Under the pieces are notes generated by a model. It had not been told where the DNA came from. It ran no database searches and saw only the letters and a program-made list of their open reading frames with translations. Source: an uncultured Pirellulaceae bacterium (lineage in GTDB: Bacteria; Planctomycetota; Planctomycetia; Pirellulales; Pirellulaceae). From it: a stretch of 49,240 nt of DNA. This document shows, in pieces, positions 22,434 through 27,926 of this stretch; positions within the stretch are counted from its first letter, which is position 1; each line of letters opens with the position of its first letter. Location of the stretch: contig CAKZVF010000217.1 of the NCBI GenBank assembly GCA_937921995.1, forward strand, positions 1 to 49,240, given 5' to 3'. A program made the translations under genes and the position numbers.

Positions 22434-23413
22434 AGCGTTTTGAACGTCGGCATCGCATGAATCAATTGCATCGCGATGCTCTCTTAAGTAGGCATACAAC
22501 AGCATCGCTGGGTGACGAATGTCTTTGTTGTTGAAGTTGTTACGAGCGCGATAGAAACAAAGTTTACTTCGTTTGGTCGGCAACGAAAACAAATGGGTAA
22601 CCGCCATCCTTGTTGAAAAAACGATTTGTCATGTTAAAAGCGCGCGTTTAGGTTGCTGTTTAAGAAAAAAAATCAAAAAAAAATTTGATGCTAGAAAGCA
22701 CGTTCAGTTTGCATCATCTAAAAGCAAACTTGGAACTTGAAATTCCACAGTTGCAATTTCTTCGCGCCTAAAAATGCATTCTAAACTTTGATTGTTCAGC
22801 TTTCTTAACCCCATTTCTTGTCTACAACGGATGAGCGCTTGGTTCTATTTGCGGCGGTTGCACGTTTGTGCTTCGAAAACTGTTTTTGAGATGCTGTTTT
22901 TACCAAAAGATATAAATTTCCCGTTGTAAAAGCGAATTTTTAATCGTTCGCCGTAGCCGTTTTATGATGGTTCGATCGCGATTTGTTTGCCAAAGACGCG
23001 TGTCGAAGGCATCTTTTAAACGACGATGAGCACAAAGTGGCAAGCGATAACAAAGGTTCGATATGATTTACATTTCGGTGCAGTTGAAAGTGCTGCTTTG
23101 AATTGTGTTTGCAAAATTATTTGTTTCAGGCGAGTCACCAAAGTCAATTTCGATTGGTGTTGAAGGAAAAAAAATTTACAAAAGGTGCAAAACAATATTG
23201 AAAAGTTCTGGGGGTTCTCTAAAACTAAAAACGTTGTCAACCTGTCGGTGGAAGCATTGTGCTTACATCATCACCAATGAAGGTGTGTGGAACAGGTTTT
23301 TTCATTCGAATCACAACGTGTGATTTAATTTCGAATGGCGAGTGAGTCAAAAAGGCTTTGACGTAAAGCCAGACCGGACTCTCTCTCCACGGTCTAAAAA
23401 CGGAGGACGTCCT
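22434..23413. other. AT-rich non-coding region upstream of histone-like gene
   Basis: About 980 bases with no credible gene. The composition is clearly more AT-rich than the flanks, with A-tracts around 22665-22690 and 23165-23175. A perfect 12-base palindrome, GCATCGCGATGC, lies at 22468-22479. Short ORFs of 30-45 codons exist (for example from ATG 23027) but have no ribosome site and no recognisable sequence. The region probably holds the promoter and long leader of the Lys/Ala-rich gene, and may encode an untranslated RNA. Confidence 0.55.
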
Positions 23414-23653
23414 GTGGCCAAAAAGAAGAAGGCTAAGAAAAAAGTTACTAAGAAAAAAGCAAAAAAGAAAGTTGCTAAGAAGAAAGTAACAAAGAAGAAA
23501 GCCAAGAAAAAAGTAGCCAAGAAGAAGGCTAAGAAAAAGGCCAAGAAGAAGGCTAAGAAGAAAGTAGCAAAGAAGAAGACAAAGAAGAAAGCTACTAAGA
23601 AGAAGGCGACTAAGAAGAAAGCAAAAAAGAAAGTCGCTAAGAAGAAAAAGTAA
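23414..23653 (+). CDS. Lys/Ala-repeat histone H1-like protein
   Basis: A 79-residue protein made of little but Lys, with Ala, Val and Thr, in a repeating (K)KKAKKKV/T pattern. It resembles the C-terminal tails of histone H1 and bacterial Hc1/HctB-like or AlgP-like proteins that bind and condense DNA. GTG 23414 is chosen because GGAGG at 23402-23406 lies seven bases upstream; the longer frame from 23342 has no ribosome site and different composition. Such proteins occur in planctomycetes as chromosome-associated basic proteins (family knowledge). It is monocistronic, with a terminator right after. Confidence 0.85.
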   Translation: MAKKKKAKKKVTKKKAKKKVAKKKVTKKKAKKKVAKKKAKKKAKKKAKKKVAKKKTKKKATKKKATKKKAKKKVAKKKK

Positions 23654-23890: not shown

Positions 23891-24955
23891 TTAAAGCACA
23901 GGCAGCTGTGCCTGAACCGGTTCTTTGGCGAATTTTTCCGCCAAGCATTTGGTCAGCTCAAAAGCGATCTTTTCCAGATAAGGCGCGATTTCGGCATCTT
24001 CGAAGTTGTCGGACATTTTGCCAGCATCGCCTCGTTCACGAAGCTGGATGTTGATCGGGATTTCACCAAGGAATGGGATCTTGTCTTGGGACGCATATTC
24101 TTTGGCCCCGCCTTTGCCAAAAATATCGTAGCTCTTTCCATTGTCAGGACAGAGGAAGCTGCTCATGTTTTCGATCAACCCCAGCACAGGAATTTTGACT
24201 TTGCGAAACATCCCGACCGCTTTGATTGCGTCAATCAACGCCACCTCTTGAGGCGTGCAAACAATCACAGCGCCGGTCAACGGCAGCAGCTGGGAAAGAC
24301 TCAGCGCGATGTCGCCGGTGCCTGGTGGCATGTCGATGATCAAGTAATCCAGTTCTCCCCAATCGGTGTCACGCACAAAGGTCGTCACCGCTGAATGCAG
24401 CATCGGGCCTCGCCAGATGACGGCTTCCCCGGGAGGAATCATAAATCCAATGCTCATCACGGGAATGCCGGCCGACTGCAGTGGAATGATCTTGTTGCCT
24501 TCTTTGGTGACCTGTCCGCGCGTTCCGGTTAAATGCGGAAGGCTTGGCCCGTAAACGTCGGCGTCCAATAGACCGACCGAACAACCTGCTTTCTTCAGGC
24601 CCATAGCCAGGCTGACCGCGGCGGTGCTTTTGCCCACGCCACCTTTTCCAGCTGCGACCGCGATAACGGCCTTCGCCTTGAGTCCTACTTGCCCCAAGGG
24701 CATCGCGGCGCGCTGATAGTCAGTGATGTCGACCGCAATCTTATGATCGGCAAACGCAGACGTTAGATGATCAGTCACCTGCTGCTGGAAATGGCTTTTG
24801 ATGGGCAGCGCAAACGTTGTGATGCCTACATCGGCTTTAATGGTGTCCCCATCAACTTCGACGGACTTAATTTGTTTCGATAGCGGACGTCCCGTTTCGG
24901 GATCGGGGATTTGCTGCAGAGATTCACGGACTGATTGGATAAGTTCGTCTGACAT
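23891..24955 (-). CDS. Mrp/ApbC-type Fe-S carrier ATPase
   Basis: A 354-residue member of the Mrp/NBP35 P-loop family, which binds and transfers iron-sulfur clusters. An N-terminal DUF59/MIP18-like domain (about residues 1-85) precedes the deviant Walker A AAGKGGVGKST (101-111), then DADVYGPSLPHL, the switch segment DMPPGTGD and the C-terminal NMSSFLCPDNGKSYDIFG. Canonical members have a CxxC pair in that last segment; here Cys269 is present but the second position is Asn272. The gene is last in a minus-strand series beginning at truA, with 27 bases to the gene before it. Confidence 0.92.
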   Translation of the reverse strand: MSDELIQSVRESLQQIPDPETGRPLSKQIKSVEVDGDTIKADVGITTFALPIKSHFQQQVTDHLTSAFADHKIAVDITDYQRAAMPLGQVGLKAKAVIAVAAGKGGVGKSTAAVSLAMGLKKAGCSVGLLDADVYGPSLPHLTGTRGQVTKEGNKIIPLQSAGIPVMSIGFMIPPGEAVIWRGPMLHSAVTTFVRDTDWGELDYLIIDMPPGTGDIALSLSQLLPLTGAVIVCTPQEVALIDAIKAVGMFRKVKIPVLGLIENMSSFLCPDNGKSYDIFGKGGAKEYASQDKIPFLGEIPINIQLRERGDAGKMSDNFEDAEIAPYLEKIAFELTKCLAEKFAKEPVQAQLPVL

Positions 24956-24982: not shown

Positions 24983-25444
24983 TTAAGACCAAGGCAGTTG
25001 GCGATGGATCTGATTTTCGAGGCTTTCGGCAGGCCCTGGGTAGGTTTGGTTATGCCGCGTAATCATCCGGCACAGTCTTTTTAGGTCCGCCGGCACGTAA
25101 AATACTTCGGCAATCCCTAAACTTCGAAGCCATTTTTCAGCGGACCGGATTTGCGAGTCACCGACAACAAAAATTCGTCGCGGCGGCCAAAACAGCGGCC
25201 TCAGTTTGCAAAATTGCTCGGAGCGAACCTCTGGTAACTCGACCACGACAGCCGCGCTAGGATACGCGATAGCTTCGGCGACCAAGTCGTTCTCGTCCAG
25301 TGCCCAAACGGCCGGGCATTCGAAATTGGCTCGTTTTAGCGCTGACTGCCACGAGGCTGAGAATGCGAGGATGAGGACCGGCGATGAGGATTGGCCGTTT
25401 GATGGGCGGCCGGTGATCTGTGTACTTTTTCTTGAACTATTCAT
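24983..25444 (-). CDS. Small protein overlapping the NtrC-like regulator gene
   Basis: A 153-residue protein whose ATG (25444) lies inside the last codons of the upstream regulator (eight-base overlap, ATGAATAG), so it is translationally coupled. It has a short polar N-terminus. The rest alternates hydrophobic strands and helices (SPVLILAFS, AAVVVELPEV, RRIFVVGD, EVFYVPADLKRLCRMI), like a receiver (CheY-type) fold without a clear phospho-acceptor Asp. No family is recognised with confidence. Its position suggests it works with the regulator. Confidence 0.72.
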   Translation of the reverse strand: MNSSRKSTQITGRPSNGQSSSPVLILAFSASWQSALKRANFECPAVWALDENDLVAEAIAYPSAAVVVELPEVRSEQFCKLRPLFWPPRRIFVVGDSQIRSAEKWLRSLGIAEVFYVPADLKRLCRMITRHNQTYPGPAESLENQIHRQLPWS

Positions 25445-26942
25445 CGGCTTCTTCAAATAGCGGTTCATCCAATGGCCGGAAGTCGTCGGCAGAAAGTCCG
25501 TCGGTGGGCTGATCATCCGCTGCCGGGGCCGGTTGTTCGAAGTCGAAATGCTGAATGCGCCTCAGAAGTTTCGCGCGGCTGACTCCCAGCAATTTGGCGG
25601 CTTTGGTTTTATTGCCTTTGGCCATTTGAAGCGCTCGACCTACCAATTTACGTTCTATCTCTGAAAGATAGTTCTCCAAGTCGATTTCAATGATTTCGCT
25701 GGGTGGGGATTTCAGCGCCGCGATCGCATGGCGAAACTTCTCGGGAAGGTCATCGACGCCAATTTCGTTGCCCTGACAGTTGTTTGATGCTGCGGCGATG
25801 ACCGCCGTGAGTTCCGCCAAATCGCCCGGCCATTGATGCTGGGCCAGCATCTGCATCGCAGCGGTGCTTAATCCACCAAGTTGAACCTCACGGTCGGCGT
25901 TGCAGCGTTCGATTTCGTATTGGATCAGCAGCGGTAGATCGGTCAGATGTTGCTGCAGAGCAATCGTTTCGATGGTTTGCGTTGTCAGCAAGTGGGCCAG
26001 ACCCGGATGAAAACTTTCCGTTTGAGAACAATGAATTAAATCACGTTCGGCGGTTGCCAAAATCCGTAGACGCGAATCGGGCATTTGCAGAATCGACCAT
26101 AACTCGGCCTGTGCTGTGGCGTCGAGCTGATCCGCGTCCAAGACGAGCAACCACGCCAGCGTCTTGTCCGTGCGGTTATCCGTTGCCAGCGCGACCTGCG
26201 TTGCCAATTCGGTGGCTTGAGCGGCACACGATTGTACAAGTTCGCTATCGGCGATGTACCCATGAAGCGTCACGAGGTCACCAATGCTGCTGCCTGCTGA
26301 GTTAGGTGCCTGACGCTGCTGCATAATCATCCGGGCCAGGCTCTCACGACCCGAACCTGCAGGCCCTAGAATCGTGAATTCCAACGCATGCTGAGAAGCG
26401 GCTTGGGTTTGTTTCTGCAATCGCAAGACGTACGGGCTGGTACCAACCAAAGCGCTACAGCGATGCCACGCTTCCATCGAGGCCGCCAGTTGTCTCAAAG
26501 CCGCGTGCAGCCTGTTGGTTTGATCGCGATCATTGTCAGCGATGACTGATTCGGCGGATCGGTTCAATGAAACCACGGCCAGCAGGCAGCGCTGCTCCGG
26601 CGTAACATTGATGAACGAAAAATCAGCGCGCGCTGTTTGCTGCGCGTTGGATACCTCAGCCGAAAAGGATTGCTCGCCAGCAACCCGTGCCGGCGGCGGG
26701 GCCAAGCCACATAACTGACGCTCTGGCGGGGTGAGGTCGAGACTGTTTGAGTAGACCAGGCGCGTGCCGAGTAACTGCTGGGCTGCTTCGCTGGCCGGGA
26801 CGTCCTCTGTCTCGGCACCGATCCACTGGAAAAACGCAGCATTTCCGTAAGCCAAACATTGCTGCTGATCAATGAGATAAACGGGGGTGTCCGATTTCTC
26901 GAGGACTTTGTTCAGGGCTGCTTTGGATCGTGATTTGGCCAT
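25437..26942 (-). CDS. NtrC-like regulator with degenerate AAA+ domain and Fis-type HTH
   Basis: A 501-residue protein with three parts. The first is an N-terminal PAS-like domain (about residues 10-125). The second is a central region resembling the sigma-54 activator AAA+ domain (about 165-400). The third is a C-terminal Fis-type helix-turn-helix (about 428-470: LVGRALQMAKGNKTKAAKLL then GVSRAKLLRRI). The AAA+ part is unusual: Walker A reads GPAGSGRES (193-201) with Arg in place of Lys, Walker B is LLVLDADQL, and no GAFTGA loop for sigma-54 contact is present. It probably binds DNA without activating sigma-54 polymerase. It starts three bases after the accA stop. Confidence 0.8.
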   Translation of the reverse strand: MAKSRSKAALNKVLEKSDTPVYLIDQQQCLAYGNAAFFQWIGAETEDVPASEAAQQLLGTRLVYSNSLDLTPPERQLCGLAPPPARVAGEQSFSAEVSNAQQTARADFSFINVTPEQRCLLAVVSLNRSAESVIADNDRDQTNRLHAALRQLAASMEAWHRCSALVGTSPYVLRLQKQTQAASQHALEFTILGPAGSGRESLARMIMQQRQAPNSAGSSIGDLVTLHGYIADSELVQSCAAQATELATQVALATDNRTDKTLAWLLVLDADQLDATAQAELWSILQMPDSRLRILATAERDLIHCSQTESFHPGLAHLLTTQTIETIALQQHLTDLPLLIQYEIERCNADREVQLGGLSTAAMQMLAQHQWPGDLAELTAVIAAASNNCQGNEIGVDDLPEKFRHAIAALKSPPSEIIEIDLENYLSEIERKLVGRALQMAKGNKTKAAKLLGVSRAKLLRRIQHFDFEQPAPAADDQPTDGLSADDFRPLDEPLFEEADE

Positions 26943-26945
26943 CGT

Positions 26946-27926
26946 TTAATTGCTATTTCCGGCAACCGTCTCGTTGCCGCTTTCGGTGAACACACCGATC
27001 TTTCTGAATCTTTGGTAACGGTTGTCTACCAATTCGTCGATGGTGGACTCCGACAGCGACTTCAGGGTCTTTTTGAAGTAACTGCGTAGTGTCGCGGCCA
27101 TCGAGTGATGGTCGCGGTGGGCTCCTCCCAGCGGTTCTTTGATCACATCATCAACGACCCCCATCTTCAAAAGATCCTTTGACGTGAATTTGAGTGCGTT
27201 GGCGGCTTTCTCGGCATGCTGAGCCCCCTTCCAGAGGATACCCGCGCAACCTTCTGGGCTGATGACGGAATAGTAAGCGTTTTGTAAAACGGCGACGCGA
27301 TCACCAACGCCGATGCCCAACGCACCGCCGCTGCCTCCTTCGCCGATGACGCAACAGATGATGGGGGTCTTCAGGCGAGACATTTCATACATGTTTTCGG
27401 CGATGACTTGGGCTTGCCCACGTTCTTCGGCACCGATGCCGGGATAGGCTCCGGGAGTGTCAATCAAACAAATGACGGGTAACCCGTATTTGGCCGCCAG
27501 ACGCATCTTGGCCATCGCTTTTCGGTAGCCTTCGGGGTGGGCGCAACCAAAATGCGTCTTCTGCCGATCTTTAAAGGTGCGGCCCTTTTGGTGGCCAAGC
27601 ACCATGACCTTCGTGTTGTCCAGTCGGGCAAAGCCAACCCGGATCGCCGGATCATCTCCGAACAGTTTGTCTCCGTGTAGTTCGATAAACTCATCAAAGA
27701 TCAAAGACAAATAATCAACGGTGTGGGGGCGGTCTTTGTGGCGCGCGATCTGAACGGTTTGCCAAGGCGTTAAATTTTCGTAGACGGATTTCGTCCGTTC
27801 GATCAACTCCTTATTTAGGTTCCGCAGGTACTCATCGGCTCCCGCGGCACCGCTGGAGTTCTTTTGAAACGATTCGATCTCAGTAGCGATATCGGCGATG
27901 GGTTGTTCAAAGTCAAGATAGTCCAT
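26946..27926 (-). CDS. accA: Acetyl-CoA carboxylase carboxyltransferase subunit alpha
   Basis: AccA is the alpha half of the carboxyltransferase that moves CO2 from biotin to acetyl-CoA, giving malonyl-CoA for fatty acid synthesis. The 326-residue length is normal. The coiled-coil N-terminus is followed by LTPWQTVQIARHKDRPHTVDY, GFARLDNTKVMVLGHQKG, the CoA-binding CLIDTPGAYPGIGAEERGQA and IGEGGSGGALGIGVGD, and the ISPEGCAGILWK segment. It lies in the minus-strand series downstream of a kinase gene and directly upstream of an NtrC-like regulator. The beta subunit accD is not in the window. Confidence 0.97.
   Translation of the reverse strand: MDYLDFEQPIADIATEIESFQKNSSGAAGADEYLRNLNKELIERTKSVYENLTPWQTVQIARHKDRPHTVDYLSLIFDEFIELHGDKLFGDDPAIRVGFARLDNTKVMVLGHQKGRTFKDRQKTHFGCAHPEGYRKAMAKMRLAAKYGLPVICLIDTPGAYPGIGAEERGQAQVIAENMYEMSRLKTPIICCVIGEGGSGGALGIGVGDRVAVLQNAYYSVISPEGCAGILWKGAQHAEKAANALKFTSKDLLKMGVVDDVIKEPLGGAHRDHHSMAATLRSYFKKTLKSLSESTIDELVDNRYQRFRKIGVFTESGNETVAGNSN

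Follow-up and report, generated by a model that had tools for sequence, protein, structure and literature searches.

NtrC-type proteins that lack the GAFTGA motif are already known. In the portions of one report that concern them (PMC10274813), the NtrC proteins of Caulobacter and Rhodobacter, along with VpsR, are described as regulating sigma-70 promoters, with some GAFTGA-less NtrC proteins needing no ATP hydrolysis; Caulobacter NtrC still requires Walker A and Walker B, both alphaproteobacterial NtrCs make use of a receiver Asp on their own chain, and for Rhodobacter capsulatus NtrC the binding of nucleotide has been reported as a signal or oligomerisation cofactor. A further precedent is the FleQ-FleN pair of Pseudomonas, in which the partner that controls the NtrC-type protein is a MinD-class ATPase; according to the relevant passages of PMC10723142, stable binding needs both the receiver and the AAA+ parts of FleQ.

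FleN itself is not an Mrp, unlike the ATPase encoded at the locus described here. In TadZ/CpaE, a receiver-like domain is fused to a MinD/ParA-type ATPase, which it is thought to place or regulate. A regulator is also known within the Mrp family, namely SalA of B. subtilis. SalA appears in a table line of PMC4992311. For the Mrp/ApbC/NUBPL proteins more generally, the CXXC motif is given as essential for Fe-S biogenesis in the pertinent part of PMC6345978, and abstract lines tie the NUBPL/Ind1 branch to complex I.

Here, we describe a planctomycete locus that brings such elements together. A sequence-only reading had picked out its NtrC-like regulator and overlapping small gene, and had suggested that the pair might control fatty acid synthesis. 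The observation is real and wider than first noted, and is in part reinterpreted: we propose that the regulator forms one part of a module whose other members are Mrp and a pseudo-receiver, and that it is unlikely to be a regulator of accA. What is new is the combination; each part has known relatives.

Layout of the locus

The window, i.e. the whole stretch of 49,240 nucleotides that was analysed, comes from an uncultured member of the Pirellulaceae. On its minus strand run truA, a Ser/Thr kinase gene, accA, the regulator, the overlapping small gene and mrp, so that the pair lies between accA and mrp, as originally noted. The features concerned are as follows.

26946..27926, minus strand: accA, which adjoins the regulator upstream only in the window's own subclade
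25437..26942, minus strand: regulator gene encoding 501 aa, with a PAS-like region, a degenerate AAA+ domain, an AAA lid and a Fis-type helix-turn-helix (HTH)
26568..26921, minus strand: PAS-like N-terminal region, residues about 8-125, from the alignment and a weak PAS_8 match
25953..26462, minus strand: degenerate AAA+ core, residues about 161-330, without GAFTGA loop or L2 loop
26343..26366, minus strand: Walker A remnant GPAGSGRE, with R199 replacing Lys
25719..25952, minus strand: AAA+ lid domain, residues about 331-408 (AAA_lid_14, 54.2 bits)
25545..25679, minus strand: Fis-type HTH, residues about 422-466 (HTH_8)
24983..25444, minus strand: small pseudo-receiver gene, 153 aa, likely ATG at 25444, with a longer reading from 25516
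25238..25240, minus strand: codon of Glu69 in the small gene, at the end of beta-3, the receiver acceptor-Asp position
23891..24955, minus strand: mrp, FeS_assembly_P plus NUBPL/ParA P-loop NTPase

Like VpsR and the NtrCs from Caulobacter and Rhodobacter, the planctomycete regulator is of the NtrC type and has no GAFTGA; where it differs, its family has also lost L2, the arginine fingers, sensor II and often the Walker lysine, and has an N-terminus that is PAS-like. The likeness to FleQ-FleN lies in the set of encoded parts (an AAA+/HTH protein of the NtrC type, a receiver domain and an ATPase of the MinD class), whereas FleQ keeps GAFTGA, its ATPase activity and a receiver on its own chain. 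As in TadZ/CpaE, a receiver-like domain is paired with a MinD-class ATPase, a likeness echoed by weak TadZ_N and CpaE2 matches, but the small gene and mrp are separate and the ATPase is an Mrp/NUBPL protein with an FeS_assembly_P domain. That protein shares its FeS_assembly_P and NUBPL/ParA P-loop domains, and a deviant Walker A, with the Mrp/ApbC/NUBPL Fe-S carriers, and differs from them in that its CXXC has become CPDN.

Domains and fold of the regulator

The proposed order of PAS, AAA+-like and Fis-type HTH domains is borne out by Pfam, in which AAA_lid_14, HTH_8 and Sigma54_activ_2 all score above the cut-off, PF00158 (Sigma54_activat) falls below it (18.1 vs 20.2 bits) and PAS_8 matches weakly. 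By sequence, its closest match in the PDB is FleQ (6.6e-16), although FleQ and FleN top such lists partly because few bacterial enhancer-binding proteins and MinD ATPases have been solved. In the predicted structure (mean pLDDT 73, with the PAS-like region at low-to-middling confidence), the AAA+ region matches NtrX, ZraR and FleQ in tied rows at Z 20-21, and VpsR structures are also among the listed matches; these fold searches give listed neighbours only and leave room for unlisted families. Thus, both the AAA+ fold and the Fis-type HTH of enhancer-binding proteins are kept.

The PAS-like part carries a family cysteine pair, Cys62-x-[YF] and an LCPPP motif at 81, with both cysteines present in 47/81 members. 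The pair is gone from the window's regulator (Leu62 and Ala81 instead), and is suggestive of a redox- or metal-sensing role for many members, the window's excepted.

A family of the class, beside sigma-54

The regulator was searched for in 147 relatives, with 80 of the best-scoring places taken for detailed locus study, and a search that covered 297 genomes from the class supplied a further 40 places. The alignment comprises 121 members: the window and its order (82) and 39 from outside the order. When 69 genomes sampled from the phylum were searched, full-length matches came only from the 3 that belong to the class, 3 other matches covering just the AAA+/HTH portion, and the family therefore looks restricted to the class. 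By name, the nearest public loci belong to uncultured Pirellulaceae and Mariniblastus.

Mean pairwise identity (81 members) is 0.56 in the HTH, against 0.35 in the AAA+ and 0.29 in the PAS region. In close pairs, dN lies well below dS for both the regulator and the small gene, i.e. both are under purifying selection (the small-gene row L071/L075 is invalid and left out, the mrp frame having been taken for L075). A pseudogene or sequencing error is ruled out by this selection and by the recurrence of intact frames; with the same features found in scores of other genomes, chance is likewise no explanation.

Sigma-54 is present in 38/40 genomes searched, including 29/29 of those of good quality, so that the regulator family works beside an intact sigma-54 system and loss of sigma-54 itself is ruled out as an explanation. 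A search by DNA-binding-domain match did not find the sigma-54 family in the window's own genome (G000, 77% complete), which, given its presence in those 38 genomes, is probably an assembly gap. The same genome holds canonical GAFTGA regulators.

A 2004 survey reportedly dealt with enhancer-binding proteins in Pirellula. Titles and abstract openings, with thin coverage of the subscription literature, yielded no account of this regulator family or of a receiver-like partner for planctomycete Mrp; a printed account of the family may exist.

Loss of sigma-54 and ATPase motifs

In the window's regulator, the Walker A segment has the sequence GPAGSGRES, R199 standing where a lysine is expected; H and L replace the arginine fingers and A the sensor II arginine. 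The distance from Walker B to sensor I is 28 residues (family medians 28 and 29) compared with 39 in seven canonical GAFTGA relatives from the window's own genome, which served as controls, and the second sigma-54 loop, L2, is 11 residues shorter. A whole-protein pattern search found a GAFTGA-like motif in 7/7 of these controls and in 0/121 family members, which rules out a hidden GAFTGA elsewhere in the regulator. The loss of GAFTGA and of the Walker A lysine claimed from the single sequence is thus upheld, with L2, the arginine fingers and the sensor II arginine to be added to it, and the alignment of homologues that had been suggested makes the absence of GAFTGA a family trait.

Within the order (n=82), the Walker A residue is R in 55, K in 18 and another residue in 9, and outside it (n=39) K in 28 and R in 11; the sensor II arginine is kept in 2/82 and 9/39, respectively, and the Walker B pattern is also degraded. 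On a quick tree, from which the count is taken, the K/R/other label changes 27 times, with K and R switching repeatedly, and the lysine accordingly looks dispensable. Its retention in 18/82 and 28/39 members means, however, that nucleotide binding may survive in many. As sigma-54 and ATPase features have been lost family-wide, the suggestion that the regulator works by a non-standard mechanism stands.

The small gene and its receiver fold

The ATG of the small gene at 25444 falls inside the regulator's stop (ATGAATAG), giving an overlap of 8 bp, and is the likely start in preference to 25516. In relatives, the two frames commonly share 4 or 8 bases at this stop, and overlapping frames have been kept in many loci of the order. 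Pfam has no family that matches the window's small protein. AlphaFold2, run with 12 homologues, predicts, at a mean pLDDT of 82, the (beta-alpha)5 fold of a receiver, which matches KdpE at Z 14.0 (rmsd 2.6, 117 aligned); TadZ (4lda) is also among its matches, as are others that share this general fold. A profile built from 39 small proteins of two other families of the class (f21 and f22) matches the NtrC receiver in the PDB at 8.5e-7, making the receiver ancestry sound, and CpaE2 at 2e-4. Weaker signals come from TadZ_N, in 2/12 of the order's small proteins (best E 0.013), and from Response_reg, in 3/39 outside the order (best 0.005).

The residues of phospho-transfer have gone from the window's small protein, which has E69 at the acceptor position, at the end of strand 3, A27/F28 for the acidic pair and V117 for the lysine; the prediction of a receiver fold without an acceptor Asp was thus correct. 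One residue of the acidic pair, lost here, is kept in most small proteins. W32 is invariant in 81 members from the order.

A reading in which the AAA+ domain still binds nucleotide, as signal or oligomerisation cofactor with Arg standing in for Lys, and in which the small protein is a receiver with unusual chemistry that can be phosphorylated, would account for two of these patterns: Walker A holds K or R, and not random residues, in 73/82 members from the order, and the acceptor is Asp in 19/24 small proteins from f21 and 7/16 from f22 (one of the 16, L299, being an ordinary receiver). That reading has, however, to contend with the decay of the arginine fingers, sensor II and Walker B together, and with an acceptor that within the order is Glu in 62/81 and Asp in only 2/81, accompanied by Ser at the lysine position in 55/81; we regard it as improbable.

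Gene order and the tie to mrp

Downstream of the regulator, the neighbourhood is steady, with the small gene directly following in 61/80 loci and mrp lying downstream on the same strand in 60/80. Row L103, where the frame was wrong, was discarded from the small-gene profile, and longer mrp frames picked up as the small ORF were excluded by length. Upstream, it is not: nuo genes are found in 25/80 (nuoLMN, on the regulator's strand), ruvB and fab genes as a divergent cluster in 22, other genes in 29, and accA in 4, each of these belonging to the window's own genus. Pfam confirmed representatives of the Nuo and RuvB clusters, and the Nuo subunit letters and the names FabD and FabG are what we take these neighbours to be from their sequence. 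By eye, no shared inverted repeat could be defined in the regions upstream of the regulator; promoter-like stretches are present. In L147 and L149, from outside the order, nuoM/nuoN lie a few genes upstream of the regulator.

These upstream neighbours bear on the proposal that the regulator acts on fatty acid synthesis, by way of accA and, by extension, the fab cluster. In the window, accA lies a mere 3 bases upstream, and the divergent ruvB/fab arrangement keeps the idea faintly alive. Set against this, nuoLMN is as common a neighbour and sits on the same strand, the 29 ‘other’ loci show how freely the upstream side varies, and no fab/acc linkage was seen among the loci from beyond the order. 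The accA reading is set aside because the upstream neighbours change; we consider it very improbable, the lasting partner being mrp.

The tie between the small gene and mrp extends beyond the regulator's own loci. Seventeen genomes have a regulator that is not followed by the small gene and mrp, and all 17 nevertheless contain the small gene, which in 15 lies upstream of mrp (within 400 bases in 14, and at 891 bases in one). The small gene is also directly upstream of mrp in 24/30 mrp loci from f21 and 15/30 from f22, with none upstream in the remaining 21/60; at 6 of the first 14 outer small-gene matches, mrp is absent within about 3 kb. From the unlinked genomes and from f21 and f22, we conclude that the small gene is physically tied to mrp. 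No small gene was found near the regulator in any of the 39 loci fetched from outside the order (0/39), and the physical trio is therefore a trait of one order.

The small gene also follows the regulator by genome. In 21 regulator-less genomes of the order, hand-picked by their weak best regulator matches in the 297-genome search, the small gene gave just one weak match (E 0.0015). Compared with the genomes in which the regulator is unlinked, this yields Fisher values of 6e-10 by genome and 3e-7 by genus, which ignore relatedness and are not true probabilities, the counts not being independent of phylogeny. Similarly weak genomes were left out of the 21 (e.g. G065, G249, G302, G307, G312 and G344), none of which is among the matches of a shallow class-wide small-gene search; as that search scored 12 candidates per genome and missed G048 and G105, it is no basis for absence. 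G115, also left out, has a weak or partial regulator match and yet a small-gene match. Unlinked homologues had been named in advance as evidence against a joint role for the two genes: in most of the 17 genomes they do indeed lie apart, but both are still held there, and this co-occurrence even without linkage supports the view that regulator and small protein are functionally tied.

One may ask whether these are simply two unrelated units sharing an operon: a sigma-54-independent regulator answering to a signal of its own (e.g. one sensed by its PAS-like region), and a small receiver-like protein that serves Mrp only, by placing or regulating it. The 15/17 unlinked genomes in which the small gene stays with mrp and not with the regulator, and its position beside mrp in f21 and f22, would fit such an arrangement, as would the TadZ-like signals (TadZ_N in 2/12, the CpaE2 profile match and the 4lda fold match). 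It leaves unexplained, however, why genomes lacking the regulator lack the small gene as well (1 weak match in 21) and those in which the two are unlinked keep it (17/17), and why the overlapping frames of the two genes are kept in so many loci of the order; we consider this explanation possible, though on balance doubtful. A small gene both linked to mrp and co-occurring with the regulator is what would be expected if its product connects the two.

The neighbouring Mrp

The window's Mrp matches PF10609 at 315 bits and keeps the deviant Walker A, GKGGVGKST. Its PDB matches are to the Mrp family, followed by FleN (2e-8), with the same caveat of few solved structures as for FleQ. CPDN replaces CXXC, with the loss of the second cysteine; in 62 relatives from the order, CXXC is kept in 26, the first cysteine alone in 33 and the first cysteine is absent in 3. 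With CPDN in the window and CXXC in only 26/62, a regulatory role for Mrp is conceivable.

A model for regulator, small protein and Mrp

Putting these findings together, we tentatively propose, with a probability of roughly 0.45, that the regulator is independent of sigma-54, does not hydrolyse ATP and works together with a trans-acting pseudo-receiver and the MinD-type ATPase Mrp, in a manner somewhat like that of FleQ-FleN. This NtrC-type family would have become uncoupled from sigma-54, with no need of ATP hydrolysis, and would bind DNA through its Fis-type HTH, the AAA+ fold being retained as a scaffold for folding and oligomerisation. Judged by its sequence, the regulator would most likely act as an activator or repressor at sigma-70-type promoters. 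The small protein, as a receiver fold without standard phospho-chemistry, is most likely a module for protein-protein interaction, and since its gene sits beside mrp and co-occurs with the regulator, its likeliest role would be to connect the regulator with Mrp; we infer that the three proteins may form a complex.

We also speculate that the nucleotide or iron-sulfur state of Mrp may be passed on to promoters, much as FleN acts on FleQ. The nuo neighbours, and the link of NUBPL/Ind1 to complex I, make respiratory or Fe-S genes (nuo, mrp) likelier targets than accA. Because the parts of FleQ-FleN resemble the regulator, small protein and Mrp, an analogue assembled in trans is what we have in mind. 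A bolder form of the idea, in which the three genes make up a dismantled FleQ-FleN-like switch, with an ATPase-dead regulator, a receiver-like domain supplied in trans and an input from Mrp, such that Fe-S or nucleotide state sets respiratory transcription and Mrp proteins without CXXC are mainly regulators, strikes us as rather unlikely.

Were the model to hold, the class would offer a natural experiment in which an ATP-driven sigma-54 activator has been kept as a plain DNA-binding regulator, with the repeated exchange of the Walker A lysine suggesting that hydrolysis is dispensable. Mrp, a widespread and poorly understood Fe-S/MinD-type ATPase, would gain a dedicated receiver-like partner and, possibly, a route into gene regulation.

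Further observations around the locus

The Ser/Thr protein kinase gene between truA and accA (28869-28003, minus strand) keeps this position in the subclade L039-L042. In L192, a Rhodopirellula metagenome-assembled genome, a divergent regulator has a small-gene-like ORF approximately 2.5 kb upstream, with no mrp within the examined stretch. Finally, just past the 3' end of mrp in the window lies a 103-aa ORF of Lys/Ala repeats (KKKA-type, with a histone H1-like make-up; 23342-23653, plus strand), and such an ORF is also seen on the complementary strand near mrp in relatives, e.g. L114.
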